Shown here: in pieces, positions 1,256 through 29,107 of the stretch
Position numbering within the stretch: position 1 is the first letter of the stretch
How the letters are laid out: each line of letters opens with the position of its first letter
NCBI GenBank assembly: GCA_022566355.1
Contig: JADFJB010000050.1
Location: forward strand, 1 to 32,005
DNA length: 32,005 bases
Source: a candidate division KSB1 bacterium
GTDB taxonomy: Bacteria > Zhuqueibacterota > JdFR-76 > DREG01
Direction: 5' to 3'
Notes under the pieces: generated by a model
Told to the model about the DNA's origin: nothing
Database searches by the model: none
Seen by the model: the letters and a program-made list of their open reading frames with translations, nothing else
Program-made: the position numbers and the translations under genes

Positions 1256-2590
1256 TTAGACTGTTTCGATTTCTCGTTCCAAGATATCCAAAACATTAGA
1301 ATAGTTGTGGATGGTTAAGTCCAATTGCACAAAGGAATCCAACTCTAATTTATTTAAGTAAGAATTGATTCTCGCTGCCCTGGCTTCTGCAACTTGGGGT
1401 TCCGTGTAGGAAAAGAAAAGGATGAGTTCATTTGGGGCTTTACAAAACGCCGCATCCTGGGGTTGCATTAATTTTTTTACCATTAAAACAACATGGTTAA
1501 TTTTCTTTTTGTTTTCAGAATTATTTTCAGCTTGATTCATCGTCGAAAAGCGGAGATGAAGCACAGCATAAGGTTTTTGAGCCAAATGATGCTGGTGCTT
1601 TTCCAATCTTAAAAAATCCTCAAAAATACAACCGTCCAATGTTTGTAATCCATTTTCATTTAGAATCATCTGCAATGCATTATCGTCCGGTTTATCCGGA
1701 ACAATTCCAGGCTTCAATGAAAATGAATAAATAATTTGGGCGTTGGCCTCTTCCTCTTTAAATTCCGTTTCACATGACCAACAGCGTGCGAAAGACAATC
1801 CATGCTTAAATTCAGATTGGCATCTTTCACATCTGTTAAAATGAGAAATTCCACTATTAAATGAATTGCTTTCAGAGTTCTTAAATTGTATGTCCTGGGT
1901 GAATATAGGAGAATGGCAGTCAGGGCAAACGGTTCTAATATTTATTTGATAAGAGCTGCATGTAGGACAGGTCTTAACCATGTCATAAATTCGTTTCACT
2001 AACCATCCATCTTTTTCCACTTTTTCTAGAAATTCGATTTGTTGTTCGGGATTTAGTTCCTTATTATCCCATTTCGAAAGCAGTTTATAAGAAAACCCAA
2101 ACTTTGATTGTCCATCCGGCGCCGGTTTAATTGTTTTAATTTTCTTTGTAATCAAATACTCAACAAATGAAGGCTTGCTCTTGTTATCACTTGATCCATT
2201 AACTTTGGAATCTCTGGAATTGGAACTATAAATCCGTAAAGCTGTATTAATTTTTGCCAATAACATCTCCCGGTCAAATGGCTTTGTCAGGAAGTCCAAA
2301 GCGCCTGCTTGCAATGCTTCAAGCTTGACATTCATATCACGAATATCGGATAAAATATAGAACGGCATTTCGGGATAATGAATGTTGATTTCCCGGCATA
2401 ATTTAGAACTTGAATAACCTTTTAAGCTCCACTCAAAAATTGCAAGATGAGGCTTTACTGTCTTCCATTTCTCCAAAGCAGTTTCACCATCAGCATAGGA
2501 GAAGACTTCGAACCCAGATTCCTTCAAAACGTTATTCAGAACATTTCTGGCATTCATATCCGGTTCAATTATGCTAATCCTGAATTTCAT
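1256..2590 (-). CDS. Atypical response regulator: degenerate receiver, paired zinc ribbons, GGDEF-like C-terminus
   Basis: The N-terminal 120 residues are a receiver domain: acidic pocket E9/D11, switch Ser81 and conserved Lys103 in LTKPF. The phospho-acceptor position is Glu53 (HLAIFEWSLKG; the codon at 2432-2434 reads GAG) instead of Asp, so normal phosphorylation is not expected. Residues of about 208-280 hold four paired cysteine knuckles (CPTC, CPDC, CERC, CWSC), which look like two zinc ribbons. The last 125 residues (HLRFSTMN..., then PNELILFFSY where GGDEF would be) resemble a diguanylate cyclase fold without its active site; this last call is inference. The gene is last in the minus-strand run, nine bases after a histidine kinase. 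ATG start. Glu may mimic the phosphorylated state, or the domain may only bind partners. Confidence 0.7.
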   Translation of the reverse strand: MKFRISIIEPDMNARNVLNNVLKESGFEVFSYADGETALEKWKTVKPHLAIFEWSLKGYSSSKLCREINIHYPEMPFYILSDIRDMNVKLEALQAGALDFLTKPFDREMLLAKINTALRIYSSNSRDSKVNGSSDNKSKPSFVEYLITKKIKTIKPAPDGQSKFGFSYKLLSKWDNKELNPEQQIEFLEKVEKDGWLVKRIYDMVKTCPTCSSYQINIRTVCPDCHSPIFTQDIQFKNSESNSFNSGISHFNRCERCQSEFKHGLSFARCWSCETEFKEEEANAQIIYSFSLKPGIVPDKPDDNALQMILNENGLQTLDGCIFEDFLRLEKHQHHLAQKPYAVLHLRFSTMNQAENNSENKKKINHVVLMVKKLMQPQDAAFCKAPNELILFFSYTEPQVAEARAARINSYLNKLELDSFVQLDLTIHNYSNVLDILEREIETV

Positions 2591-2599
2591 TTTCTTAAA

Positions 2600-3739
2600 T
2601 TATCCTACAGCTTGCCGGGCTATTATTGGGTTCATTGCCTCCAAGCATACCGGCAATGAAAATGATACCTTGAAATATTTTCCATACTCGGTATCCACCC
2701 AAATGGATCCACCATGCTTCTTAATAATATGTTTTGCGTTATACAAACCAAGCCCGGAGCTTTTCATTCCAAGCTGGTTTTCAGATTCAATGCGGGTAAA
2801 TTTTTTAAACAAATTCTTCAATTGATTTCTTTTAACACCCTGGCCAGTATTCAGAACACTGATTTCAAAATTGTCCTCTTTTCTCACCATCTCAACGACC
2901 ACATTCCCTCCCTGGTTGGAGTATTTAACAGCATTTGAAAGGAGATTGTTAAAAACGACTCTCATTAACCCGGAATCACAATCAACCACAATGCTGTCCA
3001 GATCTGTTTCTACCCATACATTCAATTCTTTCCGGTTGTACTGTTCGGTCATTTCTTCCAACACAAACGAAAGAATATCTTTGTGTAAGTCAAACCTCTT
3101 TTTATCAATAACCAGGTCACCTTGTTCAATATTAGCCAAATCCAAATAATTCTTTATCATTTCAATTAATAATCTGGAGGACCGAATAATGACTGACACG
3201 GCTTTCTTTTGTTCGGTTTTTAGTTCTCCCAACAATTCCTCATCCAATAACTCGGCGAAACCGAGAATCGAAATCAACGGATTTCTTAATTCATGAGAGA
3301 CAAATCCCAGCATGTTCAAATATTGCTGATTCATTTGTTCGAGAAGATTATTTTGCTTCTCCAATTTTATCTTGGCTTTATATAAGTTTTTATTGGACTC
3401 CTCGAGATTATGAAATACTTCTGCATTCTCTTTTAAAACTATTGCATGTGACGCAAACATAACAAAAGATCTGAGCTTTTCTTTAACAAGGCATTTATCA
3501 TCCAATTGATCTACATTGACTAAATCGACTCCCGGAATTTCATCAAATCGATCATTATATTCTTTTAAGATCGTGTCCAACAATTCATCCAGATCCGTAC
3601 TTTTTTTTATGAGTTCAGTGCTGACATTGTAATTCCGGAACAATTCTTCGACCAGCATGTCAGCGTTCGATGATTTGGAATTTTTATTGTCAGTTTTTTT
3701 TTTATGTCCTGCTTCTTTCATAAACTTACTGTTACTCAA
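2600..3739 (-). CDS. Soluble sensor histidine kinase (HisKA + HATPase_c)
   Basis: No membrane segment is visible in this 379-residue protein. It has an uncharacterised N-terminal region (1-105), a coiled coil (about 108-140), the H-box VSHELRNP with His149, the N-box around Asn265/Asn269 (NNLLSNAVKYS), the G1 box NTGQG (297-301) and the G2 box SSGLGLY (from 328). All catalytic boxes are intact, so it should be an active cytoplasmic kinase. The listed start is a TTG whose first bases overlap the TGA of the upstream receiver (TTGA, 3736-3739), suggesting translational coupling. An in-frame ATG six codons later (3719-3721) is an alternative; neither has a strong ribosome site. The adjacent receivers are the obvious partners: the canonical one upstream and the Glu53 one downstream. 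Confidence 0.85.
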   Translation of the reverse strand: MSNSKFMKEAGHKKKTDNKNSKSSNADMLVEELFRNYNVSTELIKKSTDLDELLDTILKEYNDRFDEIPGVDLVNVDQLDDKCLVKEKLRSFVMFASHAIVLKENAEVFHNLEESNKNLYKAKIKLEKQNNLLEQMNQQYLNMLGFVSHELRNPLISILGFAELLDEELLGELKTEQKKAVSVIIRSSRLLIEMIKNYLDLANIEQGDLVIDKKRFDLHKDILSFVLEEMTEQYNRKELNVWVETDLDSIVVDCDSGLMRVVFNNLLSNAVKYSNQGGNVVVEMVRKEDNFEISVLNTGQGVKRNQLKNLFKKFTRIESENQLGMKSSGLGLYNAKHIIKKHGGSIWVDTEYGKYFKVSFSLPVCLEAMNPIIARQAVG

Positions 3740-4116
3740 TTTAAACCAAGTGTTTGATATACTTTATCAACCAATTTGATCGGACTAAACGGTTTACTAA
3801 AAACACCCTGGGCATTAGTTTCCCGGTATTTTAATTCAGGAATCGGAACAGCTGTGAGAAAAATTACCGGTATATCGCGAGTTTTAGAATCATTTTTAAT
3901 CTGCCGGCAGACTTCCAATCCATCGTATCGTCCCGGCATTCGAACATCCAACAATACCAGATCGGGAGCTTCATTAGCTATCATGTTCAATGCTCGATCT
4001 CCGTCTTCCGCTTCTACCACATTAAAATCATCAACCATCAGTGTTTCTCTAACCAACGATCTGATTTCCTCTTCATCATCAACAACTAAAATTTTTTTTG
4101 AGAAATATCCACTCAT
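3736..4116 (-). CDS. Stand-alone response regulator (CheY-like receiver)
   Basis: At 126 residues this is just a receiver domain. All key residues are present: acidic pair D13/D14, phospho-acceptor Asp57 in LVLLDVRMPG, switch Thr88 and Lys108 in SKPF. It has no output domain, so it must act by protein contact or as a phosphorelay intermediate. Its stop overlaps the start of the following histidine kinase by four bases, and it follows the PAS pseudokinase by 36 bases. ATG start at 4116. The R-Y-D insertion after PG is common in single-domain receivers of gliding and environmental bacteria. It is the most likely phosphate acceptor from the downstream kinase. Confidence 0.88.
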   Translation of the reverse strand: MSGYFSKKILVVDDEEEIRSLVRETLMVDDFNVVEAEDGDRALNMIANEAPDLVLLDVRMPGRYDGLEVCRQIKNDSKTRDIPVIFLTAVPIPELKYRETNAQGVFSKPFSPIKLVDKVYQTLGLN

Positions 4117-4152
4117 TTTATAACCTATTGCTTATTACAAATATTAATTTCT

Positions 4153-5331
4153 TTAATCCTTCATTAAAGCCTTTAATTCCGAATTCCAATTAGAAAATTT
4201 GATGACCAAAACCAAAGATTTCTTTCCCCGTATCTGAAATTTCCCACCATTCCATTCCACAATATCTTTTGCCAGCGCCAGGTTAATCCCTTGCTTATTT
4301 ATTTCGTGATCATTTTGTGTTTTCAACTCTTTCTTAAAATTCCTGGCTTTTTCTTCATTTACTGTTGAATTCTTACATTGAATTTCCATTTCACTTTGGT
4401 TTTGTACCAAATTAATCTTCAATACAGAATTTTGATGAGAACAGAAAACCAAATTTTTTATAATGTTTTCTACTGCTTTATTAAATAATATTTTGTCCGC
4501 TAAAATATAGACGTTGTCGGATTTTTCAAATTGAATTTGTACTTTTAGCCTATATGATTCCGAATCGATGTTGGCAATGGCACTTTTTATTGTTTCGTTC
4601 AATTCAACCGGAGAAACCTCTGAGTCATTTTCCGAAGCTAACGGAGAAAGCCTCATCAGGTCTTCCATTATTTTTTCCAAATTCTCTCCGGATTCTATTA
4701 AAAACCGAAAGTGTGCACTTTCATCTTCGTTTAATTTTGTTTTCAAATCACTGTACAAATAATTTAAAACCCCAATCAAACCATTTAAGGGAGTTTTAAT
4801 TTCATTGGAAGCAAAAGTGAATAAGCTAGTTCTAAGCTTTTCCAGGCGCTTGTTTTCCGTAATATCCCGGAGAACAAAAACAAAGCCACTCCTTTCTGTT
4901 TGTTGGCTGACGGTTTTGGTTACAGTAGCCAGGTAGACTGATTCGCCAAGGGAATTTATTGAAAATTCGAGAGTTAATACCGTGGAATCTTCAGTCTTAA
5001 ACTGATTGATTTTGGGGGTAAGATCTTGAATTGGCAGCAACCTAACAATCGACGATCCTTGAATGTTTTCCGGTGTTTTTTCAATTATATTTTCAAATGC
5101 CTTATTAAATTCTGTAATGACCAAATTGTTATCTGTTGCCACCATCGCATCTGAGATGCTGTTTACAATAGCTTTTAGTTTGTTGTGGGTTTCTTCCAAA
5201 TGGATACGGCGTTCCCGCTCTTTACGGTAGATTTGTGCAAAGTCTTTGCTGTAAACCAAAATTTGTTTTTGCGAAAGGATCAATCTTTCAAACAATTCCT
5301 GACGTGATAAATTAAACTTGGTATCTTTCAA
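4153..5331 (-). CDS. PAS-domain histidine kinase homologue lacking the phospho-acceptor histidine (pseudokinase)
   Basis: The protein is 392 residues long and has no membrane segment. A coiled N-terminus (to about 50) leads to a PAS domain (about 50-160: NSISDAMVATDNN...VLRDITENKRLE), then a HisKA-like region and an HATPase_c-like region. The H-box reads FASNEIKTPLNG, with Asn176 where His is required (codon 4804-4806 gives AAT). The ATP-binding half is also eroded: an N-box-like NIIKN is present, the G1 box is replaced by CKNSTV and the G2 box is only QGINLAL. It should therefore be unable to autophosphorylate. TTG start at 5331 is supported by an AAAGG ribosome site seven bases upstream. 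It lies between the PilP/GspC-like gene and a canonical receiver, so a scaffold or decoy role in a relay is plausible. Confidence 0.8.
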   Translation of the reverse strand: MKDTKFNLSRQELFERLILSQKQILVYSKDFAQIYRKERERRIHLEETHNKLKAIVNSISDAMVATDNNLVITEFNKAFENIIEKTPENIQGSSIVRLLPIQDLTPKINQFKTEDSTVLTLEFSINSLGESVYLATVTKTVSQQTERSGFVFVLRDITENKRLEKLRTSLFTFASNEIKTPLNGLIGVLNYLYSDLKTKLNEDESAHFRFLIESGENLEKIMEDLMRLSPLASENDSEVSPVELNETIKSAIANIDSESYRLKVQIQFEKSDNVYILADKILFNKAVENIIKNLVFCSHQNSVLKINLVQNQSEMEIQCKNSTVNEEKARNFKKELKTQNDHEINKQGINLALAKDIVEWNGGKFQIRGKKSLVLVIKFSNWNSELKALMKD

Positions 5332-5349
5332 AACTTGCCTTTCATTAAA

Positions 5350-5814
5350 CTAAAACAGGTAAAGCACTCGGATGCTTTTGTTGTTCGCCAGAACAACTTT
5401 GTCATTACGAATCATGATTACTCTCATATTACGAACCCAATCTCCAAGGGCTACCATTTTTCCACCAATTAATGCGTATTCTTTCTCATCACGATAGACC
5501 AAACCTTCTAATAAACGTTTGGATGTCCGCTTATTCGAACCTGAATTAATATTTGATGGCAGAAACGGATCTCTTAATTGCATATCTATTTCATTCATAT
5601 CATTCGAAGTAGCCAATTGACTTCGGTTGTTAAGCAGACCTTTTAACGTTGGAATTAGGGAATTCGCAATATTCATCTGGCCAAAGTGAATGTTCTCAAA
5701 TTTATGTTTAATATCAATTCCACCAAGCCATAAACTTGTCGTAGCACCACCTATTGCAATTACCAATAATTTTACTACATTTTTCATGAGATAATTAAGT
5801 AAATAATGCTTCAC
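5350..5814 (-). CDS. PilP/GspC-like inner-membrane alignment protein
   Basis: This protein of about 154 residues has one N-terminal membrane segment (about 12-32), a low-complexity linker, and a small C-terminal domain starting with the typical RDPF (81-84) and continuing LEGLVY...ALIGGKMVALGDWV...V..I..DKVVL.N. That is the signature of the PilP / GspC homology-region fold, which in characterised systems links the inner-membrane platform to the outer-membrane secretin. It follows the PilO/GspM-like gene by eight bases. The GTG at 5814 gives the longest form; an ATG nine codons later (5785-5787) is equally possible, and neither has a good ribosome site. No secretin gene follows: the next gene is a sensor pseudokinase. 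Confidence 0.65.
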   Translation of the reverse strand: MKHYLLNYLMKNVVKLLVIAIGGATTSLWLGGIDIKHKFENIHFGQMNIANSLIPTLKGLLNNRSQLATSNDMNEIDMQLRDPFLPSNINSGSNKRTSKRLLEGLVYRDEKEYALIGGKMVALGDWVRNMRVIMIRNDKVVLANNKSIRVLYLF

Positions 5815-5822
5815 TTTTCAAA

Positions 5823-6398
5823 TTATAACAACCAACCTTCAAGGTAAAGATGCACTTTATCCATATATGTATCTTCGGCTATTTCGGGCTTCAGGTGTAC
5901 TGTTTTTATTTCAAAAACTACAAATTCCAATTCAATACCTTTTAAAAACTCTACAATGCTTGCAAAGGAAGCATTAAGTTGAAAACGATACGCATATCCG
6001 ACAGGGATCTCTTCCTGTGTTTGTACGGACAAGTCTATTAGATCTATCTTTTTCTCTAACCCCATCTTAATGATTCGCTGATAAACGTCCATATCATTTT
6101 CACATACCTGGAAATTTGGAATTGAATTTACCGGAAGCCAATTAAAAGCCTGTACGTCAACTTCTTCTAATTTTTGAAAATTATTGTAAGTAAGAGTAAC
6201 TTCATTACGAAGTTGGACTATTTCTGTGTTAAGATTAATTGTCTTTTTAATGATGGATGTAATTCTGGTTGACATCACATAAGTGGTTACAAAGGTTAGT
6301 AAGAGAATAAGAATAGTACTTATCCCCTTCTGGATCCTGGGTAAATACCTGCTAAATTTTGATGATCGATAATTAACTTTTAGTCGAAACTTTGACAT
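5823..6398 (-). CDS. PilO/GspM-like inner-membrane assembly protein
   Basis: A basic N-terminus, one membrane segment (about residues 24-42), a short coiled coil and a small alpha/beta periplasmic domain make up this protein of about 191 residues. This is the layout of PilO and GspM, and the sequence keeps the late feature of PilO-like domains, 'V..Y.F.L...ASF..IVEFLKGIE'. The ATG at 6398 is chosen because GAGAAAG precedes it; an upstream in-frame TTG at 6419 would add seven residues. The start lies inside the end of the PilM/PilN-like gene, implying coupled translation. Assignment rests on topology, size and gene order more than on sequence identity. Confidence 0.6.
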   Translation of the reverse strand: MSKFRLKVNYRSSKFSRYLPRIQKGISTILILLLTFVTTYVMSTRITSIIKKTINLNTEIVQLRNEVTLTYNNFQKLEEVDVQAFNWLPVNSIPNFQVCENDMDVYQRIIKMGLEKKIDLIDLSVQTQEEIPVGYAYRFQLNASFASIVEFLKGIELEFVVFEIKTVHLKPEIAEDTYMDKVHLYLEGWLL

Positions 6399-7983
6399 TA
6401 CTTTCTCGAATGTTAGCAATCAGTTTATAAGATATGAGATCGCTAGTATTATGATCTTCATCAATTTTTTTTAATAACAATTGTGAAAAATACCCAGTTG
6501 CTGACAACTTATTAAAAAATTCAGTGACGTAATTTCCGGACACGCTTTTGCCTTCTATGACGATGGATACTGGTTCTTTTTTTCTTTTTGATTTTCTCTT
6601 TGAGTTTTCTTTTGTAACTATTTTTATGTCAGTAACCCATATCCCCCGGGGAATTTGTTCACTCACCAAAGTCAAAATTGATGATAATTTTCTAAATGTT
6701 GTTCGAGGAATTTCCTTTTTTTGCTTATTAGTCAATAATAAATTATAATTATTTAATTTTCTAAAACTCGATAGATTACTTTCAATTTCTTTCTTTTGTA
6801 CACTTAAACGCGAAAACTCGTGAAGTTTTTGATTATAATTATAAGTCGTTAATACAAAAATAAAAAGTAGCGTAAAAGCCGTCGATAACCCAATTAAACG
6901 CACTCCTCTCATAACCGATTTATCGGTCGAAGTGTTTTCAGGAATACTTCTGATCAGATTTAATCTCTTCCTTTGCTTTGATTGAGCGCCAGCCATGGCT
7001 AAAGCTATTGCTTGAGAAAAAATTGGCTTAATATCATGCAGATGATCAAAATTATTTTTTGCCTTACCCATTGAGAGTTGTGTAAAGGGATTCACGTTTT
7101 GAATTTGTAGGTTCATATTCTGCGAAATATATTCTTTCAACCAGTTGTAAAGCCCGCCACCGCCTAATATTTTAATTTGGAAGATTTGAACATTGTATTG
7201 ATTTTTTAGAATCAATAATAATTCTTTTAGCTCATTTTCCAGTTCTTTTAAGTTTCCTTGAATATCAATCAAAATATTCCCAAACCCGACGATAAAGGCA
7301 TCCTCTTTATAAATCCAATTCTTATTCTCATAAGAAATTTGATCGGATTTTAAAGCATCAAATATTCTTTTCCGGGTTTGTTGATTTATATTTTTTGGAA
7401 TAATTGATTTGAATGAGAATTTGAGTGTCTTAATTTCGAGTATGTTTTGACCGAGTGAAAAAATTAACTGGCTCTTTTTATAACCAATATTTAAAAATAA
7501 ATAATATTCCTCTTTTGAAGTATTCTGCAGTAGTGGAATTGTCAGGTTATCTATTTCCAGTCTTTTCGGAAAACCTTTTAATGCTTTTCTTGGGCTCCAT
7601 TCACTTTTTACAAACTCTTCCGTAACATCAAGATTATATTTTTGATTGTCCAAATTATCTTCAAGCTGTTTTTTTTTGCGAGCATAATTTAGAATTTTCC
7701 TCAATATTGATTTATTCGTTGGATGCATCTTAACCCCATCAGATGGTAAACCAACAGTAATCTTAGCACCATAAAAATTAATTTTTTTCAACCTATGTTG
7801 AATCATTTTTGTTAAGTTTTTTGCAGAAGAAAAAACCGGGAGCTCAAAAAATAGTATATGAGTAAGTTCATATTTTGACTCCAACATCCTTAGCCCGATA
7901 AGTTTAACGGAATGCGTCCCCCAATCTAATCCGAAACTAAGATTCTTTTGCTTTCCCAATATTCTTTTTAAAAACCCTATCAT
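6373..7983 (-). CDS. GspL-like protein / PilM-PilN fusion
   Basis: Residues 1-335 form an actin-like cytoplasmic domain of PilM type: FGLDWGTHSVKLI near the start and LGGGGLYNWLKEYI...NPF at 273-300. Then comes LNLIRSIP (341-348), the PilN-type motif before its membrane segment, a single membrane helix (about 362-381), a coiled coil and a ferredoxin-like periplasmic domain (about 440-530) carrying IVIEGKSVSGNYVTEFFNKL. In type IV pili these halves are two proteins (PilM, PilN); in type II secretion the same layout is the single protein GspL. It anchors the assembly ATPase to the inner membrane. ATG start at 7983; an 81-base gap separates it from the pseudopilin. The gene is markedly AT-rich. 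Confidence 0.8.
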   Translation of the reverse strand: MIGFLKRILGKQKNLSFGLDWGTHSVKLIGLRMLESKYELTHILFFELPVFSSAKNLTKMIQHRLKKINFYGAKITVGLPSDGVKMHPTNKSILRKILNYARKKKQLEDNLDNQKYNLDVTEEFVKSEWSPRKALKGFPKRLEIDNLTIPLLQNTSKEEYYLFLNIGYKKSQLIFSLGQNILEIKTLKFSFKSIIPKNINQQTRKRIFDALKSDQISYENKNWIYKEDAFIVGFGNILIDIQGNLKELENELKELLLILKNQYNVQIFQIKILGGGGLYNWLKEYISQNMNLQIQNVNPFTQLSMGKAKNNFDHLHDIKPIFSQAIALAMAGAQSKQRKRLNLIRSIPENTSTDKSVMRGVRLIGLSTAFTLLFIFVLTTYNYNQKLHEFSRLSVQKKEIESNLSSFRKLNNYNLLLTNKQKKEIPRTTFRKLSSILTLVSEQIPRGIWVTDIKIVTKENSKRKSKRKKEPVSIVIEGKSVSGNYVTEFFNKLSATGYFSQLLLKKIDEDHNTSDLISYKLIANIRESNVKVSTKS

Positions 7984-8064
7984 CTATTCATCTAACCTTT
8001 TGTAAAAAAGAAAATCTTATTACTTCTAAACATTGTTTACGAATAATCCGCTGCAGATTAACGG

Positions 8065-8592
8065 CTAATAATAGGCATAATAATCCTTGAAGAATTTCCT
8101 ATTCAGGTTGGCTATAAGGAAACCAGTTTTCGCTTGAAACAACCACCCGCCTGTGGCAGTCGAATCATCTGCAGTTTTCAGTCTTAATTCCAGCAAAGTT
8201 TTAGATTCACTTGAATCAAGTTTGACAGTATGCAAATTTGAAATCGGCTCAATGGGAAATTCCGGAAGATACGGTCCGAACCTGTTTTCGCGATTCCTTA
8301 ATTTAGCCGGTTTTCCGTATTCGTTAGTATACCACAGCAATTGGTTCTGTAATATGCTCAAATCGCCTTTCTTGTTATAATCATTTTCAGAGCACGGATA
8401 ATGTCCATGGTCGAGAAAGTAATTATAAATAGCCAGACGAAATTCTTTTGAGGATTTTTGAAGATGGACTTCATTTTTTTGTTGGTTTTGGTTGGAGATT
8501 TTCATAAATGCCATACAACATAACACGATTAAAATTCCTGCAATAAATAGAATCTCAATGAACGAAATTCCTTTTTCTTCTGATATGTTCAT
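8065..8592 (-). CDS. Type II/IV prepilin-like protein (pseudopilin)
   Basis: This 175-residue protein starts with a short leader ending in K-G8, followed by ISFIE and a hydrophobic helix (about 9-28). Prepilin peptidase would cut after Gly8, and Glu13 is the required +5 glutamate. The rest is a pilin-like domain: an alpha-helix, then YNYFLDHGHYPCSENDY, which recalls the G-type pseudopilin pattern where a short helix meets a Y/P-rich loop. It lies 19 bases after the GAF-PAS kinase and just before the PilM/N, PilO and PilP-like genes, so it is probably the substrate or tip component of that machine. Only one pseudopilin is present here. ATG start at 8592 without a strong ribosome site. Confidence 0.78.
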   Translation of the reverse strand: MNISEEKGISFIEILFIAGILIVLCCMAFMKISNQNQQKNEVHLQKSSKEFRLAIYNYFLDHGHYPCSENDYNKKGDLSILQNQLLWYTNEYGKPAKLRNRENRFGPYLPEFPIEPISNLHTVKLDSSESKTLLELRLKTADDSTATGGWLFQAKTGFLIANLNRKFFKDYYAYY

Positions 8593-8611
8593 ACTTCAGT
8601 TTAAATTAGTT

Positions 8612-10258
8612 TTAATCCGGATTGGGTAGTGTAAAGATAAACGTAGAGCCCTTATTTGGCTCACTCTCTACCCATATTGTGCCCTCGTGTTCTTCAATAA
8701 TTTTTTTACAAAGCCATAGCCCAAGACCACTGCCACTTGGTTTGGTACTGGGATCATCCCTAAGCTGTTTAAATTTTTCGAATACGATAGTCCTGGATTC
8801 TTTAGGTATGCCTATTCCTTCATCCTTGATAGAAATTTTCAAATAGTTACATTTATCTTTCATGCCATTGCTTTTTATTTTCTCTGTCCATATTTTTATT
8901 ATTCCTCCATCAGGGCTGAATTTTATGGCATTCCCAATTAAATTGACAAACACCTGAATGAGCCGTTTTTCGTCACTAAGAACAATTTCGTTACCATTAA
9001 AATCGGCTTCAAAATTAATGCGTTTTGCACCGGCTACAGCCTGCAATACGAATAATGATTTCTTAAACACAGCTTTGATATTGATGAACCCGATTTCTGA
9101 ATTGAATTCTCCCCTGTTTATTTTACTGATGTCTAATAGTTCCTCGATTAATTGGATCAACCGGTCTGATTCTTTATCGATAATATCGAGGAATTCTCTT
9201 TGACTTTTGGCATCACAGTTTTCAAGATCTTTTAAAATACCTGTAAAAGATTTGATTGAGGTTAAAGGCGTTCTTAATTCATGAGAAACAGTCGAAATAA
9301 ATTCATCTTTCAATTGATCCAACTGACGTAACTGAGTCAACTCCTGCTGCTCTGTCAAATCGCGGCAAACGGCAATAGCGCCAATTTTTTCACCTTCATC
9401 ATTTTTAAGAATGGTGGCATATATTTCCATCAAAAATCGTTTTTTACTTATTGGATTTCGATAAGAAAATTCATCTCGGTTTTCACCTTTTGTAAGAGTC
9501 AAATCAAATAATTGATCTAAAAAATCAACAAATTCCTGGTCAAACAATTCATTGTATCGTAATCCAATCGCTGTGTCATGTTGAGGGCCTAAAATTTCAA
9601 CTGCCGCTGAATTGAACAGTGAAATCTTCTTATCAAGATCAATCGCTATAATGCCGTCTCCAACACTCTCGATTGAATTTTCCATAAATGATTTCATACT
9701 TGACAATACATGACTTTTTGTGGCCATTTCTTCATACAAGCGTGCATTCTCAAAAGCCACCCCAGCTTGCGATCCGATTAAAGTCAGTAGATCGGAATTA
9801 TTAGATGTTATATCCTTTGAATTTATTTTAAGGAAAACGACCAACGCGCCAATTATTTTTTTACCTGTTAATAATGGAATAATGAGTAACGGATGATTAC
9901 TTGCAATCTCATCATCCGGTGGTATTAATGATACTGTATCAGATTCACTAACCCATTTTAAATACCCGGAGCGTTCCAACCAGCGAAGATGTTTATCAAG
10001 TTTGCTATTTAATTTATATTCATTTTTTAGATGGTAATGATCTGCAAATTTCTCTTTTTCAATAAAAGCAGCTCCGGAAAACTCAACAACCTGCTGCAAA
10101 ATTTTGATCACACATTTAAATACTTTATCGACTTGATGAATATCGCCTAAGCGTCTTGTTTCTTGAAAAATATGTTTATATTCCTCAAAATTATTTTGAA
10201 AATCTGCCTGTCCCTCTCCATTTGACCTTGTATAGTTTTCTTGTAGTAACGTTTTCAC
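8612..10258 (-). CDS. GAF-PAS sensor histidine kinase
   Basis: The protein is 548 residues long and soluble. A GAF domain (about 40-175), a PAS domain (about 188-300: VGDGIIAIDLDKKISLFN...VCRDLTEQQ), HisKA with VSHELRTPL and His326, and HATPase_c with Asn443 (IGNAIKFSPDGG), DEGIG (479-483) and GSGLGL (509-514). Every catalytic box is intact. The GTG start at 10258 is firmly supported by a perfect GAGGTGAT ribosome site seven bases upstream. It sits between an HDOD gene and the pseudopilin gene in one orientation. The GAF and PAS domains suggest a cytoplasmic small-molecule or redox signal, which cannot be named from sequence. Confidence 0.9.
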   Translation of the reverse strand: MKTLLQENYTRSNGEGQADFQNNFEEYKHIFQETRRLGDIHQVDKVFKCVIKILQQVVEFSGAAFIEKEKFADHYHLKNEYKLNSKLDKHLRWLERSGYLKWVSESDTVSLIPPDDEIASNHPLLIIPLLTGKKIIGALVVFLKINSKDITSNNSDLLTLIGSQAGVAFENARLYEEMATKSHVLSSMKSFMENSIESVGDGIIAIDLDKKISLFNSAAVEILGPQHDTAIGLRYNELFDQEFVDFLDQLFDLTLTKGENRDEFSYRNPISKKRFLMEIYATILKNDEGEKIGAIAVCRDLTEQQELTQLRQLDQLKDEFISTVSHELRTPLTSIKSFTGILKDLENCDAKSQREFLDIIDKESDRLIQLIEELLDISKINRGEFNSEIGFINIKAVFKKSLFVLQAVAGAKRINFEADFNGNEIVLSDEKRLIQVFVNLIGNAIKFSPDGGIIKIWTEKIKSNGMKDKCNYLKISIKDEGIGIPKESRTIVFEKFKQLRDDPSTKPSGSGLGLWLCKKIIEEHEGTIWVESEPNKGSTFIFTLPNPD

Positions 10259-10291
10259 AATTTATCACCTCATTTCAAAACTGTATTTCCC

Positions 10292-11167
10292 TTATTTACT
10301 CACCATTAATTCGAGAAAACCAATAGCTTTATCATATTCATCGAAAATTTCTTCTTTTAACTCATAAATCTCAGGTTGCGTTATCCCCAATATTTGTTCA
10401 ACAATTGGATCAATTGCTGGCATAAATGGATCGCCGCCATTGCCTAATGATTCTTCTATTGCAATCGAATTTGCCAGGTGAACCAGGCTAACCAACTCTT
10501 TATTGATCGTGGCTTTCCTGGGGTTATGATGAAATGCAACTGCTTCTTGCAGATGTAATGGAAAATTCCACTTATCACACAACCAAAATCCAATTTCGGT
10601 ATGATCTATCCCTTGTATAGTTTGCTCAGCTTCCTTAAACGAAACATGAGTTTTGTCAATACAAGTAAGAATCTTGTCAAAATTATCATGAAGAAATTGA
10701 TCTTCTACAATCTTTCCTATATCGTGAAACAAACCGGCGATGAATGCTTCCTCTGGTAAACCGATGTGGATTTGCCTGCATATTATTTTGCTTATTGTAG
10801 CACAACCGATGGAATGTAACCAAAATTCCTCCCTGTTAAATCTACTAACTCCACTACCTTTAAAAATGGAAAACACGGATGTCGCTAAGACCAAATTTTT
10901 AATCGTATTAAACCCTAATACAACAGTTGCCTGAGTAATGGTGGACACCTGCTTGGGTAAACCATAATATGCAGAATTTGCAGCTTTTAAAACTCTGCTA
11001 ACCATAGCAGCATCCGTAGAAATAGCCCTGGCCAAACAAGCTGGAGACGTTTCCGGATTTTCTACTAACTCAATAACACGCTTAACAACCTTAGAAAGCG
11101 TAGGTAGAGTCTGTATCTGGCTGATGATGTTTTTCAGATTGTCCGGTTTTTTCATCATTTCTCGCAT
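10292..11167 (-). CDS. HDOD-domain signalling protein
   Basis: This 291-residue protein has the HDOD hallmarks: the N-terminal LPTLSKVVKRVIELVENP, the STDAAMVSRVLKAANSAYYG stretch, QATVVLGF, and a C-terminal part with FHDIGK (His148-Asp149) and a later DHTEIGFWLC. An intact HD pair is notable because many HDOD proteins have lost it, so phosphohydrolase activity cannot be excluded. Such proteins act in motility, pilus control and second-messenger responses. The first ATG (11167) overlaps the upstream receiver gene by 77 bases; internal ATGs at residues 4 and 5 shorten this only slightly, and the last has a weak GAG ribosome site. The overlap suggests coupled expression with the receiver. Confidence 0.87.
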   Translation of the reverse strand: MREMMKKPDNLKNIISQIQTLPTLSKVVKRVIELVENPETSPACLARAISTDAAMVSRVLKAANSAYYGLPKQVSTITQATVVLGFNTIKNLVLATSVFSIFKGSGVSRFNREEFWLHSIGCATISKIICRQIHIGLPEEAFIAGLFHDIGKIVEDQFLHDNFDKILTCIDKTHVSFKEAEQTIQGIDHTEIGFWLCDKWNFPLHLQEAVAFHHNPRKATINKELVSLVHLANSIAIEESLGNGGDPFMPAIDPIVEQILGITQPEIYELKEEIFDEYDKAIGFLELMVSK

Positions 11168-11537
11168 TTAGAATTTCTCGCATCCGTCTAGTGATTTTGG
11201 AAGGGCTGAAAGGCTTTGTCATATACTCATTAATTCCCACAAGCTTTGCTTTTTCGATGTCGTATTTACGCCATCGGTCCGTTATCCAGATTACATAAAT
11301 ATTTTGATGTTGTGAATTCTCTTTGATTTTTTGGCACAATTGCAGCCCACAAAAATCCGAAGCCAGATCATCGACAAATAAAACATCAGGATTAAAACCA
11401 TTTTGGATATGCTCCCAAGCTTGTTTGGAAGAACGTACAGTTTCTACTCTATAGCCTTTTTCCGTCAACAACAAAGAAAGAGATCTGCTAATAAATATTT
11501 CGTTCACAGCAATTAGAATATTCGTTTTTCCAATCAA
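11091..11537 (-). CDS. Response regulator, single receiver domain
   Basis: This 148-residue receiver (ILIAVNEIF...PDVLFVDDLASDFCGL...WITDRW...YMTKPFSP) keeps the phospho-acceptor Asp56 and the conserved Lys. The acidic pocket is weakened, with Asn12-Glu13 in place of the usual Asp-Asp/Glu pair. A polar tail of about 25 residues follows the domain and contains no output module. The TTG start at 11537 is supported by AAGGAT seven bases upstream. Its 3' end overlaps the HDOD gene by 77 bases, and receiver plus HDOD is a known functional pairing (often fused), so the HDOD protein is its probable output. About 100 AT-rich bases separate it from the phosphatase gene upstream. Confidence 0.8.
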   Translation of the reverse strand: MIGKTNILIAVNEIFISRSLSLLLTEKGYRVETVRSSKQAWEHIQNGFNPDVLFVDDLASDFCGLQLCQKIKENSQHQNIYVIWITDRWRKYDIEKAKLVGINEYMTKPFSPSKITRRMREILNARNDEKTGQSEKHHQPDTDSTYAF

Positions 11538-11638
11538 AAATTATCCTTATACTTTATTTTCAGATTCTAACTTTTTTATATTATCGACATAAATGACAGC
11601 TTTAATCATACTTTGAAAGCATCATTTAACTATTTAGT

Positions 11639-13225
11639 CTATTTTATCTTCAAAACCAGCAAGGTTAGATCATCTTTTTGTATGGTATTATGATTGAAAT
11701 CTTGCACCCCTTCAAAAATTAATTTTACTAATTCTTTGGCAGATTCTCCTGCTGAATGAGCGATGTCACTCTTCAATTTATCGTATCCCAAAATTACTCC
11801 TTCAGGACTGTCGATCTCAACTAAGCCATCGGTATACATCACAAGAATATCTTTCGATTTAACAGTAACTGATTTTTCTTGGAATTGCACCTCAGGTAAT
11901 ACACCTAACAAAAGGCCTTCGGCATCCAGTTGGTTGATTTCTCTTGTTTTACCTCTATACCACATCACGGGGTGATGTCCACCATTCGCGTAGGTTAATT
12001 CTTTTGTTTTTCGATTGTAGCGAATTAGAAAAATCGAAATGAAAAATCCAGCTCGATTCAGATCTTCAAAGAGAGTCCTATTGGCTCGATTTAACACCTC
12101 TGATACCGGTATTGATTCCTGCATTAATGATTTAAGAACACTTCTTGTAACTGCCATCATTAGTGCAGCACTCACATTATGGCCCGATACATCTGCAATA
12201 ACCAAATCCACACGGTCTTCATTCTCTATATAAAAATCAAAATAGTCACCCCCAATATTGGTTGCCGACCAGCATCTTCCAAAAATTTCTAAATCAGGGA
12301 GAACAGGAAAGTGATTCGGCAATAACCCGAGTTGAATCGTTTCTGCAATTTCCAGTTCCTTTTTCATTCTCTCCGATTCTTTAGCTGTTTCAATGAGGCG
12401 GTTATTATAAATTGCAATTGCTGCAATAGAAGCCACGGAATTTAAGAGCTTCAAATCGCCAGAAGTTAAGCTTTTGGTATTTCTTTTTTCAGTCACATTA
12501 ATCACACCGATTGGTATTTCATTACCCTCGACATGTGTGCAAATCAGCGGCACGGAGATGAAAGACTCTGTTTTATAATCTCTGGTGTGAACTTTGACGT
12601 CATTTGGAATTTTACTACCATTTTGAACCAAAAGAGGCTCACCACGGCGTAGTACGTAACCACTGATACCCTCTTTTAATGAAATCCTGTGATTCTCCAA
12701 TTGCTTTACATCAAAACCTTTCGCAGCAACAACGATCAGTTCTTCCGTCTCTTCCTCGAAGAGCATAATGGATATTCTTGCTACATCGAGAACAATTTCT
12801 ATTTTTTCTATTAACACATCGAATATCTTATCCAGCTCAAAATCAGCTCCGATAGACTGACTTAATTCATAAAGAAGATTTAATTCCTCATAGCGATTCA
12901 ATAATTCGGCGGAAAAGGAGTTCATCTCGGCTTCAACCCGAGATTGATTATTAAGCACAAGCTGTAATAATTGAACAAAGGTTTCTTTAAGCCCTAAAGA
13001 ATACTTTTGAACATCTGGTGAGATTCCTAGGGTCAACGTTGTATCTTCACATTGCAGGCTTTCCTCCAGATATCCATTCTCAGTTCCATTTGAAGAAAAA
13101 ATTAAACAACCCTCTCTTTTAATCCAGAATGAGAACGGTATCAATTGATTGATTTTTAGCATAATGCCTTCAAAGCAATCAGTTTCCAGTGTTACCGCTT
13201 TCGGTGTTGTAGTATTATCCTTCAT
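11639..13225 (-). CDS. GAF-domain PP2C/SpoIIE-type serine phosphatase (RsbU-like)
   Basis: The protein is 528 residues long and has three parts: an N-terminal region (1-95) that I do not recognise, a GAF domain (about 115-275), and a C-terminal SpoIIE/PP2C phosphatase (about 300-528). Metal-binding acidic motifs are all present: IGGDYFDF (Asp327), ADVSGHN (Asp345), YTDGLVE (Asp466) and KDDLTLL (Asp518-519). Proteins of this type dephosphorylate a STAS-domain antagonist, releasing it to bind the anti-sigma-type kinase. Both partners are encoded immediately upstream (10 bases and 6 bases apart), completing a partner-switching set. ATG start at 13225. The GAF domain would be the signal input. 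Confidence 0.92.
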   Translation of the reverse strand: MKDNTTTPKAVTLETDCFEGIMLKINQLIPFSFWIKREGCLIFSSNGTENGYLEESLQCEDTTLTLGISPDVQKYSLGLKETFVQLLQLVLNNQSRVEAEMNSFSAELLNRYEELNLLYELSQSIGADFELDKIFDVLIEKIEIVLDVARISIMLFEEETEELIVVAAKGFDVKQLENHRISLKEGISGYVLRRGEPLLVQNGSKIPNDVKVHTRDYKTESFISVPLICTHVEGNEIPIGVINVTEKRNTKSLTSGDLKLLNSVASIAAIAIYNNRLIETAKESERMKKELEIAETIQLGLLPNHFPVLPDLEIFGRCWSATNIGGDYFDFYIENEDRVDLVIADVSGHNVSAALMMAVTRSVLKSLMQESIPVSEVLNRANRTLFEDLNRAGFFISIFLIRYNRKTKELTYANGGHHPVMWYRGKTREINQLDAEGLLLGVLPEVQFQEKSVTVKSKDILVMYTDGLVEIDSPEGVILGYDKLKSDIAHSAGESAKELVKLIFEGVQDFNHNTIQKDDLTLLVLKIK

Positions 13226-13235
13226 TATGACGAGC

Positions 13236-13667
13236 TTACTCGTTTACTATCTTTTCAATAATCAATTGATTTCTTTGTTTACCCTTGCTGTAATCTAAGC
13301 GATCAACCAGGTTGTGAATGATCCTAAGTCCTCTTCCATGGTCCAATAATAAATCATGATCATTTCGTTGAATGACTTGCTCAAGAGAAAATCCGTCTCC
13401 GGAATCAAATACACGAATACAAATTTTATTTCCCTTTCCTTCAATTTTATAAGTCAATTTCTCTTGGCAATTTTTATGATTTACATGAAGATGAACATTG
13501 GTCAGAGCTTCTGTAAGACAAAGTTCAACCTCAAAGGCTAGATTCGGATTATCAGGCCAAATGGATTGAACAATATTTTTCCCCACCACAGAGAACCTGC
13601 GAATATTTTCAACAGTTCCTAAAAACGAAAACTCTACCCGAAAACTATCAGTTAGTGTTTTACTCAT
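13236..13667 (-). CDS. Anti-sigma-type serine kinase (RsbW/SpoIIAB-like HATPase)
   Basis: This 143-residue single-domain GHKL ATPase has an N-box variant ELCLTEALTNVHLHV, a G1 box DSGDGF and a G2 box DHGRGLRII. That is the compact RsbW/SpoIIAB form: it binds a target (often a sigma factor) and phosphorylates the STAS antagonist. It sits six bases after the STAS gene and ten bases before the phosphatase gene. The target is unknown, since no sigma factor is encoded in the window. In several FCB and delta-proteobacterial systems such modules control non-transcriptional targets. ATG start at 13667. Confidence 0.88.
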   Translation of the reverse strand: MSKTLTDSFRVEFSFLGTVENIRRFSVVGKNIVQSIWPDNPNLAFEVELCLTEALTNVHLHVNHKNCQEKLTYKIEGKGNKICIRVFDSGDGFSLEQVIQRNDHDLLLDHGRGLRIIHNLVDRLDYSKGKQRNQLIIEKIVNE

Positions 13668-13673
13668 GTAAAA

Positions 13674-13979
13674 TTAAATTACTTCAAAAATTTTGTTTAA
13701 GCGGGTTATTGAAAACATAGAAGAGACATGTTCTGTGAGCCCGGAAACTCGAATCGAACCTTTGTAACGCCTTGCCTCTCTTAGTCCATAGACAAGTGCT
13801 CCTAAACCGGAACTGTCTATAAAGGTGACTTTCTGTAAATCTAAAAGTAAATCGGTATTACCGGTGTAAACTTGATCAATAAGAATCTCACGGAGCTGAT
13901 CTGCATTTTCAATATCAATGGTTTCCTCATCAACCAAAATCCTAATTGTATTATCCTGATTAAAGTAATTTACTTTCAA
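13674..13979 (-). CDS. STAS-domain anti-sigma factor antagonist (RsbV/SpoIIAA-like)
   Basis: The 101-residue STAS domain contains the phosphorylation loop VTFIDSSGLGALVYGL; the second serine (Ser57) matches the phosphorylated residue of SpoIIAA. It would be phosphorylated by the kinase encoded next and dephosphorylated by the GAF-SpoIIE protein. The start is a TTG at 13979. No other start is possible in this frame because TGA stops it six codons upstream. Only a weak GGGA lies in front, so poor translation of this first gene may be part of the stoichiometry. It is the first gene of the three-gene switch. Confidence 0.9.
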   Translation of the reverse strand: MKVNYFNQDNTIRILVDEETIDIENADQLREILIDQVYTGNTDLLLDLQKVTFIDSSGLGALVYGLREARRYKGSIRVSGLTEHVSSMFSITRLNKIFEVI

Positions 13980-14165
13980 TAAATTGTCCCAATATCAATG
14001 AGTTCAACCTTGAGGATATATTTTCCTTTATTTTATCTAAATCGGAAGGATTCGGTATTTCTTTAAAGAGGGTTCTGCAATCTTTCCTTTTTAAACTCTT
14101 ATGACACGTTATTTATAAATATAAATAAATTATTTTAGAAACGCGTTTGACTATTTTCTTGTTTT

Positions 14166-14314
14166 ATGAGATTCCGCTAAATAAGGTTTTACCCATAGCC
14201 GCTCTTTAAGCCGGAATCTCATCATTTCAAAGTGAAAAGATTGCGGCTAACAAAATCCGGAATTGTTAAAAAAGTTAATTTTCGTTCGGATGCAAGTTAA
14301 GAGAAGGGTAAAAC
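14166..14314 (-). ncRNA. Candidate structured leader RNA upstream of the partner-switching genes
   Basis: The gene-free stretch 13980-14340 contains several exact complementarities. ATGAGATTCCG (14166-14176) pairs with CGGAATCTCAT (14212-14222). GTTTTACCC (14186-14194) pairs with GGGTAAAAC (14306-14314). AGCCGC (14197-14202) pairs with GCGGCT (14243-14248). The last two use bases inside the loop of the first hairpin, so they would form a pseudoknot or an alternative fold. The strand is assumed from the flanking minus-strand genes. I do not recognise a known riboswitch or RNA family. It could also be a simple imperfect hairpin repeat. Confidence 0.35.
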
Positions 14315-14340
14315 TTTTATGGGAATTGTCTAAAAGGAAT

Positions 14341-14712
14341 CTATCGAAGAGCTTTCTGCAGGGCGTCTTGAAGTTTATTTATATCCATCGGTTTAACTAC
14401 ATATTCATCAGCACCCTTTTGTAAAGCTTCCGTTTCTAATTCCCCGTTACCATATCCTGAAATCAAAACCACAAATACCTCGTTATCTTGTTTTTTGATT
14501 TGTGTTAACAACTCCAGGCCATTCATTCCTGGCATGTTGTAATCAATGATTGCTGCCCGAATGGGTTTTTTCTTTATTTTTTCCAATGCCGCTTTACCGT
14601 TTTCTGCTGTAATTACTGAATAACCCATCCTGGTTACCAATTCAGCAAACAGATCTCGAAAGTCTTTTTCGTCATCAACAATGAGTACATTTACATTTTT
14701 ATTACCCACCAT
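14341..14712 (-). CDS. Stand-alone response regulator (CheY-like receiver)
   Basis: This 123-residue receiver carries all standard residues: D13/D14, Asp57 in AAIIDYNMPGMNGL, switch Ser85 (LISGYG) and Lys107 in VVKPMD. There is no output domain. It begins the signalling block in transcription order but is separated from the STAS gene by a 361-base gene-free region, so it may be a separate unit. ATG start at 14712 with only a short purine stretch (AGGG) close to it. A possible phosphate donor is either intact kinase of the block; sequence alone cannot pair them. Confidence 0.88.
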   Translation of the reverse strand: MVGNKNVNVLIVDDEKDFRDLFAELVTRMGYSVITAENGKAALEKIKKKPIRAAIIDYNMPGMNGLELLTQIKKQDNEVFVVLISGYGNGELETEALQKGADEYVVKPMDINKLQDALQKALR

Positions 14713-14868: not shown

Positions 14869-16782
14869 TTACAAAGTAATAATGAGCTTTTCCGAAACTT
14901 TGAACGAGCCATACTGAACAACAACAAAATAAATCCCGGTTTGCATTATTCTGCCCAGGTTATCTCTTCCATCCCATAAAATCAATTTTCCCGTACTATG
15001 AGTTAAGGAAAATTCATCATGATAAACTTTTTGGCCAAGAAGGTTGTAAATGGTAATTCTCCCAATTTGATTGGGATCATTAAACTCCCCTCTCAATAAG
15101 AATTTTGAGGCTCCTTTCATTGGGTTGGGAAAAATGGAAAATGTATAACTTTCCGGTTGGGTTGATGATTTACTTGTTAGAGCACTAGTTAGGGTTTCAT
15201 CCGTATCCAAGTCAAAAAGGACATCTTCTCCTTCGATTCGAATATTTTTAACCGAAATAAAAGTCACTTTGTTGTCATTGGTTCGCGTATTTGGAATTGA
15301 GTATTCACTAAACTCATCTTTATCTCGTTCTCCAAAAAAATCAGTCAAATCTTCATACCAATCGGAATAGCCAGGAAAGGGGTCGCCGTTATCCCCCCTG
15401 TTTCCGAAATTTAGAAATTGATATGAAGATAAATCTCTAGGTGAATCCAGCTGTTCAAACCAAGTGTCGTTTATCAAAATAGGACTTGCTTCTTCCACAT
15501 CTATTAATCTTCTGGAATCATCACTGTTGTGAAATCGGTTTTTGTTAACATGGTAAATGATAAGCCCGTTTGCCAATGGCCGGTTAAAATCAACTTGCCT
15601 GCGAGTTAATGCAGCATCAAATAATTGATTTTGCCTGTTCTCCAGTAAGAAATATTCGTCCGGATCACTTAAATTTGTTGACATAGAATCGTTCCAGACC
15701 TGAATAGCAAAGGGTTCACTTTCAACCGGGGGTAAACGATAACTATTGGAGCCAGATCTGACCATTTGCGGTTGAAGCCAACCAAGGCGCATTTTGGACC
15801 AGGCAGTAAAATGTGACGGCCGGGTTCCGAAACGATCTCCGGGAAGATGACACCACCCTCCACTTGCCATTAATCCCCATTCCCCGATTCCCTCGGAAGA
15901 TCTATCCGTATCATATAAATCCGGCAACCCTAAAGTATGGCCAAATTCATGACAAAAAACGCCAATCGTTCCGTTTTGCGGTTCAATGGTATACCGGCCA
16001 ACTTTTATACCGTCTGCCGTTTGATATTGAACAGAAGCTTGATGAGACCAAAAATAATTAAAATGGGCATCATAACTACTGATATACAATTCCTCAGCAC
16101 CGGGTCCTGCATGCACAATAAATAGCGCGTCGACTACATTGTCGCCATCTTCATCAAATTCCGAAAAATCAATATCCGCATCTGCTAATTCTAAGACTTC
16201 ATGAATAAATGATTTCAAAAAAACATAACCACTATTAAGACCATAGTCATCTGAAGTATTTGGTAAGCCATCATGATTTGAATAATATGAATACGGTTGG
16301 CTAACTGTATACCATGCCGTCACAGTCCCATCAACATCAAACTGCCCATATGAATTTTCAACATAATAATCTCGCATACTACCGGTTATCAAACTCTGGC
16401 TATATGGATCCTTAAATGAATGGATACTAAAAAGCATTTCTTCGTAATAACTGGTCTGGTAAAGTCCCTCAAATCCCGGCTCATTTATGGGATTAATAAA
16501 ATTTGAATCTTGTTGGGTATCCCAGGAATAATCAGGAAAATCAGCCAGAAGGATGATTGCTTTAACAGATCCTGTTACACTTTTCTTAATTTCCGGTAGG
16601 GATTGAATACGACTCAAATGCTCGTACGGAGGAGCGTCTTTAATAATCCCTTTGTTGAGGTGTTTTGAAGTTAATGTTCCTTTAAGCGCAGGCATAGGCA
16701 GTTGTGCATTAAGTAAAGACCATGGAAATAGCGCCAAAAACAGCGTTTGAACAAAGATTCTTTTTGTTTTGCTTTTGGGCAT
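14869..16782 (-). CDS. Secreted M6-type metalloprotease with FlgD-like/Por-type C-terminal sorting domain
   Basis: The 637-residue protein starts with a signal peptide (basic start, hydrophobic core about 10-23, ending LLNA-Q). The zinc site is CHEFGHTLGLPDLYD (His278, Glu279, His282, Asp288), followed by the Met-turn WGLMASGG; this is the immune-inhibitor-A/M6 family pattern. Before it, FDEDGDNVVDALFIVHAG looks like an EF-hand-type calcium loop. The last 90 residues (FSIFPNPMKG...IYNLLGQKVY...WDGRDNLGR...GIYFVVV) form the FlgD-like/Por-type sorting domain that usually directs export and surface attachment in FCB bacteria. It is a single gene divergent from the RCK_C gene, 156 bases before the receiver at 14712. 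ATG start without a strong ribosome site. Confidence 0.92.
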   Translation of the reverse strand: MPKSKTKRIFVQTLFLALFPWSLLNAQLPMPALKGTLTSKHLNKGIIKDAPPYEHLSRIQSLPEIKKSVTGSVKAIILLADFPDYSWDTQQDSNFINPINEPGFEGLYQTSYYEEMLFSIHSFKDPYSQSLITGSMRDYYVENSYGQFDVDGTVTAWYTVSQPYSYYSNHDGLPNTSDDYGLNSGYVFLKSFIHEVLELADADIDFSEFDEDGDNVVDALFIVHAGPGAEELYISSYDAHFNYFWSHQASVQYQTADGIKVGRYTIEPQNGTIGVFCHEFGHTLGLPDLYDTDRSSEGIGEWGLMASGGWCHLPGDRFGTRPSHFTAWSKMRLGWLQPQMVRSGSNSYRLPPVESEPFAIQVWNDSMSTNLSDPDEYFLLENRQNQLFDAALTRRQVDFNRPLANGLIIYHVNKNRFHNSDDSRRLIDVEEASPILINDTWFEQLDSPRDLSSYQFLNFGNRGDNGDPFPGYSDWYEDLTDFFGERDKDEFSEYSIPNTRTNDNKVTFISVKNIRIEGEDVLFDLDTDETLTSALTSKSSTQPESYTFSIFPNPMKGASKFLLRGEFNDPNQIGRITIYNLLGQKVYHDEFSLTHSTGKLILWDGRDNLGRIMQTGIYFVVVQYGSFKVSEKLIITL

Positions 16783-28797: not shown

Positions 28798-29107
28798 TAA
28801 TTGTGATGGCTTCGTTTGCGTTGACCAAAGTCTGGACCGTGTGAATAATCTCAGGTTCCTTATTTACCGAAACTACGACTGTAGCCGAGCCGCTCAATAG
28901 CGAAAATTGAGCGCTTCTCGCAGCTTCGCCGATGGGAGAGGCCTGGCCCCCCGCCGTCGCAGTAAGAGAAAAATTTTGAGATTGCGCCGTGCCGCCCAGG
29001 TTGCTTTGGGTGGAAGACTCAACGCTGGTTTGTGCGAATATTGGAGCGCTGCATATAAAGATACACAAGCTCAAAAACATCATTTTTATAAATTTTAACT
29101 GACACAT
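28712..29107 (-). CDS. N-terminal part of the broken secreted surface protein
   Basis: The frame starts with a signal peptide (MCQLKFIKMMFLSLCIFICSAPIFA-Q) and continues through a Gly/Ser/Thr-rich segment (TATAGGQASPIGEAARSAQF) to an Ig-like start, ITIIATITDDFGIE. There it leaves the frame of its downstream partner and ends after about 20 unrelated codons. The ATG at 29107 is chosen because AAAGGA lies eight bases before it; an earlier ATG at 29128 adds seven residues. With 27610-28797 it appears to be one gene whose middle has been lost. A real decay product or an assembly error are both possible. Confidence 0.65.
   Translation of the reverse strand: MCQLKFIKMMFLSLCIFICSAPIFAQTSVESSTQSNLGGTAQSQNFSLTATAGGQASPIGEAARSAQFSLLSGSATVVVSVNKEPEIIHTVQTLVNANEAITIIATITDDFGIESRSVLCRISQHFRNDSG

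Follow-up and report, generated by a model that had tools for sequence, protein, structure and literature searches.

A type II secretion remnant kept within a partner-switch signalling locus of a candidate division KSB1 bacterium

What do a pseudopilin and its inner-membrane partners do in the midst of signalling genes, with no motor, platform or pore beside them? The locus that raises this question lies in the window studied here, a whole stretch of 32,005 nucleotides that makes up the entire contig C50 of a candidate division KSB1 genome (G000; 4.62 Mb in 213 contigs, 98.5% complete). On the minus strand, positions 1256–14712 hold genes for STAS, RsbW and SpoIIE phosphatase proteins, receivers, an HDOD protein and kinases, which surround those for a pseudopilin, a PilM-PilN fusion, PilO and PilP; this block has no gene for an ATPase (GspE), platform protein (GspF), secretin or minor pseudopilin. 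The secretion and regulatory genes had been named in an original prediction from the bare sequence, and Pfam, profile and fold comparison confirmed them. It had also proposed a regulatory system dedicated to an envelope machine, in which secretin, ATPase and platform were replaced by a pseudokinase and receivers. A regulatory system linked to an envelope machine is supported, gene order being conserved in related genomes; the replacement is not, because loci of sister families hold the same signalling genes together with all of these parts. The window therefore represents the loss of a machine from a locus that was already signal-controlled, and the gene comparisons below make loss, rather than replacement, the most likely fate of motor, platform, minor pilins and pore.

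Seven genomes of the window's order were compared; phmmer searches of the open reading frames (ORFs) of related loci gave the gene order. The window genome and G002 form family f1, G003 belongs to f2, G004 to f3, and G005 and G006 to f4; more distant genomes are those of f9 (G011 and G023) and of f23 and f12 (G070, G072 and G032; G076 is in f12). Completeness is 95% for G002, 82% for G004, 77% for G001 and 99–100% for the f9 genomes. We call the locus full where the signalling frame carries a complete type II secretion system (T2SS), and reduced where the same frame carries only the pilin and PilMNOP.

The full locus of f4 begins with NtrC-RR-STAS-RsbW-SpoIIE-CheW-MCP(s)-CheA/RR-CheB-CheR-RR-HDOD (RR, response regulator; MCP, methyl-accepting chemotaxis protein). 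It continues with a GAF/PAS histidine kinase (HK; present in G006, absent in G005), GspE, GspF, the pilin, minor pilins, PilMN, PilO, PilP and the secretin, and it ends with PAS HK-RR-HK-TackOD1 and a convergent DUF6263 gene (Pfam). The full loci of the sister families have four pilins in all. In G006 (L031/L064) and G005 (L032/L065) the locus spans about 30 kb and, with its NtrC, partner switch, CheW/MCPs/CheA-receiver/CheB/CheR, complete T2SS and TackOD1 genes, is a signal-controlled secretion island.

The reduced form in f1 and f3 is the f4 frame without the Che genes, GspE, GspF, minor pilins and secretin. A gene-order comparison had been proposed as a check, and the order of the window indeed recurs in two other genera, in G002 and, split over two short contigs, in G004; the order is therefore not due to chance. 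A minimal form, SpoIIE-RR-HDOD-HK-pilin only, is found in f9, which has neither a GspF nor a secretin of this system's type. Its orphan pseudopilins (L102 5043–5582 and L104 852–1397, behind SpoIIE-RR-HDOD-HK) carry Pro or Lys for Gly-1 and lack a canonical prepilin cleavage site. A scan of the genome collection with the pilin as query gave only four loci, each in a genome already in the comparison set.

A T2SS gene follows the GAF-PAS kinase, separated from it by no more than one or two small genes, in seven of the eight readable genomes. The exception is G003, where the signalling block (STAS to the kinase corresponding to that at 2600) shares no contig with the machine, the block there having no pilin and PilMNOP genes; the linkage is thus strong but not universal. 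In G001 the SpoIIE-RR-HDOD-HK part was found and the contig stops there. In G076 HDOD-HK-RR is followed by GspE, a kinase like that at 2600 and TackOD1, with F and the pilins elsewhere, and the T2SS of f23 and f12 (G070, G072 and G032) comes without the signalling block. G070 has two similar complete T2SS loci (L093 and L094).

The order of events was read from a PilB1 tree in which PilB2 and GspE paralogues set the root. Every reduced genome falls inside one clade, (G002, G004, (G000, G001)), supported at 98/97, and the full genomes are in its sister clade, (G003, (G005, G006)), at 88/87. Outgroup families also carry complete T2SS loci with orthologous pilins, so loss in the reduced clade is the simplest history. 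On this basis the ancestor of the block would be a type II secretion/type IV-filament locus that was complete and under signal control; GspE, GspF, the minor pseudopilins and the secretin would have been lost in the common ancestor of f1 and f3, and the pseudopilin, PilMN, PilO, PilP and signalling genes retained. The states in the families are graded, from full in f4 through pilin and PilMNOP in f1/f3 to the pilin alone in f9.

Parts absent from the block could be encoded elsewhere, and a search for GspE/F/D or PilB/C/Q had been suggested. Made genome-wide, it returned core type IV pilus copies only, and the candidates for an E, F or secretin of this system were rejected. All E, F and secretin matches of G002 and G004 belong to the separate core pilus, as do all E and secretin matches of G000. 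A search of G000 for T2SSF gave no match; since contig C68 ends within core PilB2, just before the position of PilC in relatives, the absence of PilC is most likely an assembly gap and not biology. Core PilP, suspected to be missing from G000, was located at L026 5725–6195. It should be noted that the core pilus locus of the order (L027, L060, L061, L062 and L066; PilD-(HK)-RR-HDOD-PilB1-RR-PilB2-NtrC-PilC-pilins) codes for two ATPases of the PilB type and has two-component genes of its own within it.

By both position and sequence, the four secretion-derived genes are orthologues of those in the relatives' complete loci, PilM/PilN being GspL-like, PilO GspM-like and PilP GspC-like. Over its full length, the pseudopilin is orthologous to the pilins at the GspG position of complete T2SS loci throughout the phylum; its structure model (pLDDT 65) is too weak for a meaningful fold search, the top low-significance matches of which included EpsG of V. 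vulnificus and V. cholerae. The PilM part of the fusion matches solved PilM by profile (E = 1e-27) and by fold (2ych, PilM-PilN, and 5eou; model confidence modest, pTM 0.39). PilO and PilP were assigned by profile–profile comparison (hhalign) with G000's own core PilO (E = 8e-7) and core PilP (E = 3.5e-11); a PilP profile search of the PDB gave no match. The block thus has the inner-membrane assembly proteins of a T2SS (L/M/C or PilM/N/O/P), and all three reduced-genome pilins have the prepilin cleavage-site residues of a major pseudopilin. GspE, GspF, GspD and minor pseudopilins are absent from it, and none of this system's type was found elsewhere in G002, G004 or the available G000 assembly. 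Neither does it match a type IVa pilus with its own PilB, PilC, PilQ and a major pilin with conserved filament-core helix, motor and pore being absent and the helix eroded. The remnant is derived from a T2SS/type IV filament machine but lacks its defining motor, platform and pore.

With PilD, two PilB, PilMNOPQ and PilT present in G000, and PilC found in relatives just past the end of C68, a core pilus is at hand that the remnant could use. The main rival reading, which we consider rather unlikely, is that the pseudopilin and PilMNOP still assemble or secrete through the PilB, PilC, PilQ and PilD of that pilus, acting as an accessory pilin or another alignment complex with signal control of its own. 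Which parts of the remnant remained constrained bears directly on this. Regional identities were taken from few genomes, compared at similar species distance (PilB1 66–70% identical). The filament-core helix has a mean identity of 35% among reduced, 90% among full and 77% between full and outgroup pilins, as against 51%, 62% and 48% for the head. In the reduced pair G002–G004 and the full pair G003–G005, respectively, 66/113 and 67/113 positions of the head are identical (Fisher p = 1), but 10/25 and 22/25 of the N-terminal helix (Fisher p = 9e-4). The core type IV pilins of G002 and G004, taken as a control, are identical at 24/24 positions of the same helix; with the equal identity of the heads, this led us to reject a generally faster evolution of the reduced lineages.

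The other proteins follow a similar division. Full systems give a full-length PilM_2 match (E about 1e-32), and reduced ones a C-terminal fragment or none; the motor-side 1C region is eroded in all three reduced genomes, while the phosphate-binding motifs DWGxxSVK and GG(G)G (DWGTHSVK and GGGG in the window) are kept. The C-terminal domain of PilP is 47% identical among reduced and 43% among full systems, the periplasmic part of PilN 35% and 24%, and its cytoplasmic tail 9% and 26%. Constraint was therefore maintained on the periplasmic side and relaxed on the side of motor and filament, and the remnant looks functional but changed. Use of the core pilus would be consistent with the conserved PilP domain and the retained Gly-1 and Glu5; it is at odds with a filament-core helix that, unlike that of core pilins, has lost constraint, with the erosion of PilM 1C, and with f9, where pilin and signalling genes persist without a canonical cleavage site, a system-type F or a secretin.

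The same data bear on whether the pilin and PilMNOP are simply leftovers on their way to loss, carried in a useful signalling operon. Stepwise loss across the families, the signalling block of G003 and the erosion of some protein parts are what one would see in that case. We nevertheless find it improbable: the genes are intact and ordered in three genera whose divergence is given above, the head shows the same constraint as in full systems, and the periplasmic domains of PilP and PilN are at least equally conserved, a sparing not expected under random decay.

Our best reading, which we hold to be an even call, is that the former secretion machine now acts as a non-assembling envelope sensor or scaffold, and a scaffold role would fit the erosion pattern best. 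In the full form, MCPs provide the sensors; with these lost, the secretion remnant is the main contact of the locus with the envelope, and it is mainly from this that we infer such a role. Within the block, only the pilin, PilMN, PilO and PilP clearly span the membrane: its kinases are soluble, and no convincing membrane segment was seen in the signalling proteins, the GAF-PAS kinase having one hydrophobic stretch within its GAF domain. PilMN, PilO and PilP would form an inner-membrane platform, whose periplasmic domains, with the membrane-anchored head of the pseudopilin, would report an envelope or pilus-related state. Signals would pass inward, to the partner switch and to the kinases, receivers and HDOD protein in the cytoplasm, all encoded by this operon. 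A little less confidently, we propose that, while families diverged, a T2SS that had lost motor, platform and pore may have become a sensor or scaffold that spans the membrane and serves a partner-switch and two-component network, its intermediate and extreme (uncleavable pilin) states being still extant.

Several points weigh against a sensor or scaffold. The reduced pilins retain Gly-1 and Glu5 (3/3), so that the core pilus might process and perhaps also assemble them; the domain that PilP retains is of the secretin-binding type and could mean docking to core PilQ; the reduced form is seen in three of the seven genomes of the order, one of them on short contigs; and the regional identities rest on alignments at 20–50% identity.

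A PilMNO set without a pilus has been described once, in the flagellar-motor cage FcpMNO of the Campylobacterota C. jejuni and H. pylori (PMC11870540), which is the one precedent for PilMNO exaptation. Like FcpMNO, the block keeps PilM, PilN and PilO homologues without pilus motor or pore, and in a proposed new role; the FcpMNO operon has no pilin or PilP gene and is linked to flagella, whereas the block has both genes and is linked to signalling. Flagella do occur in some KSB1 clades (PMC9012183), and the remnant might be a structural part of another machine of this kind. We hold this to be very improbable, since no flagellar gene was found in the block or the related loci examined (no genome-wide flagellar search was made) and the linkage is to signalling instead.

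Pilin-like proteins also inform a regulatory pathway about the envelope or surface in the minor pilins/PilY1-FimS-AlgR (PMC5979040) and CpaL (PMC12607857) systems; there the pilus is functional, whereas the block has no dedicated assembly machinery. Chemosensory pilus control of the Pil-Chp/Hmp type has its counterpart in the CheW, two MCPs, CheA-receiver, CheB and CheR of the full-form relatives, but the window has lost all chemosensory genes and the machine is T2SS-like. In line with the original prediction, no described system with this gene set came to light: none of the open-licence papers searched was found to describe a pseudopilin/PilMNOP remnant linked with a partner switch.

Retention of a machine part for so long among signalling genes, in an uncultured and little-known bacterial group, suggests that a secretion machine here became a sensor or scaffold. 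If so, a secretion nanomachine would have been converted to a signalling device, with full ancestral, partial and minimal forms all in living relatives, and these would be a natural experiment separating the type IV-filament parts needed for sensing from those needed for assembly. It would be a second, different exaptation of PilMNO beside the flagellar cage, and it predicts a non-polymerising pilin head and periplasmic contacts of PilP and PilN.

The features of the block are listed in Table 1.

Table 1. Genes of the block, in the order of decreasing position in the window.
Feature	Coordinates	Strand	Basis and state
Stand-alone receiver	14341–14712	-	Acidic pair, Asp and Lys intact
STAS antagonist (RsbV/SpoIIAA type)	13674–13979	-	Phosphorylatable Ser conserved in DSSGLGAL
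RsbW/SpoIIAB-type serine kinase (HATPase)	13236–13667	-	N, G1 and G2 boxes intact
GAF-SpoIIE (RsbU-type) PP2C phosphatase	11639–13225	-	Metal-binding Asp residues intact
Receiver	11091–11537	-	Acidic pair lost in window only (AVNE vs VVDDE)
HDOD protein	10292–11167	-	Pfam HDOD
GAF-PAS histidine kinase	8612–10258	-	All boxes intact
Pseudopilin	8065–8592	-	Marginal pilin-type Pfam match only; Gly-1 and Glu5 retained
PilM-PilN fusion	6373–7983	-	Pfam PilN (E = 1e-6); PilM_2 fragment (E = 7e-4)
PilO-like inner-membrane protein	5823–6419	-	No Pfam match above cut-off; hhalign to core PilO
PilP-like protein	5350–5814	-	No Pfam match; RDPFxP motif and C-terminal homology-region domain conserved
PAS-pseudokinase	4153–5331	-	H-box His -> Asn; ATP-binding boxes degenerate
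Receiver	3736–4116	-	Active-site residues intact
Histidine kinase	2600–3739	-	HisKA and HATPase present; no membrane segment
Receiver-TackOD1 zinc-finger protein	1256–2590	-	Phosphoacceptor Asp -> Glu

The 14 genes below 13979 are closely spaced, with intergenic distances of only -77 to 101 bp from STAS (13979) to TackOD1 (1256), so one long transcript is plausible. The stand-alone receiver is set 361 bp apart from them and most resembles that of the NtrC-type regulator which occupies this place in relatives. Sigma-54 promoter matches in the window number 4, against 7.6 expected by chance; a promoter scan did no better than on shuffled sequence, a terminator scan was slightly above shuffles only, and an Rfam search gave no match.

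The block has a complete Rsb partner-switching module, that is, a PP2C phosphatase, a STAS protein with Ser and an HATPase serine kinase, and as the active-site residues of all three are intact, the switch should work, as predicted from the residues listed above. As in RsbU-RsbV-RsbW, the three lie in one operon; unlike there, the operon has no sigma factor gene, and it is embedded with T2SS-derived genes, HDOD and TackOD1.

In the HDOD tree, the protein of the block clusters with HDODs from loci of this type, including those of f9, apart from core-pilus HDODs (100/100). The GAF-PAS kinase gene adjoins the pilin gene in f1, f3 and f9; its tree places f9 with the locus type at 81/92 only, on long branches, so the placement of f9 is carried by the HDOD tree. 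The pseudokinase was rightly recognised as such: the H-box position holds Asn in the window, Gln in G002 and His in G003–G006. TackOD1, whose function has been called obscure (PMC5847659), is represented by one protein per genome that has it, located at this locus; its receiver has Glu for the phospho-accepting Asp in the 4/4 members of the order that were tested, suggesting that it is locked on, and Asp in G076.

The gene for a DUF6263 protein with a lipobox-like start (190–1050) is convergent to the block; one also adjoins the block in G005 and G006 and was not found at that place in G002. Elsewhere in the window, an M6-type peptidase (14869–16782) and another protein (27610–28797) have C-terminal Por secretion-type (type IX secretion system, T9SS) sorting domains. 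The ORFs at 29656–30831 and 30837–31544 have no Pfam match, and G+C climbs from about 0.36 to 0.47 over positions 28000–32005.

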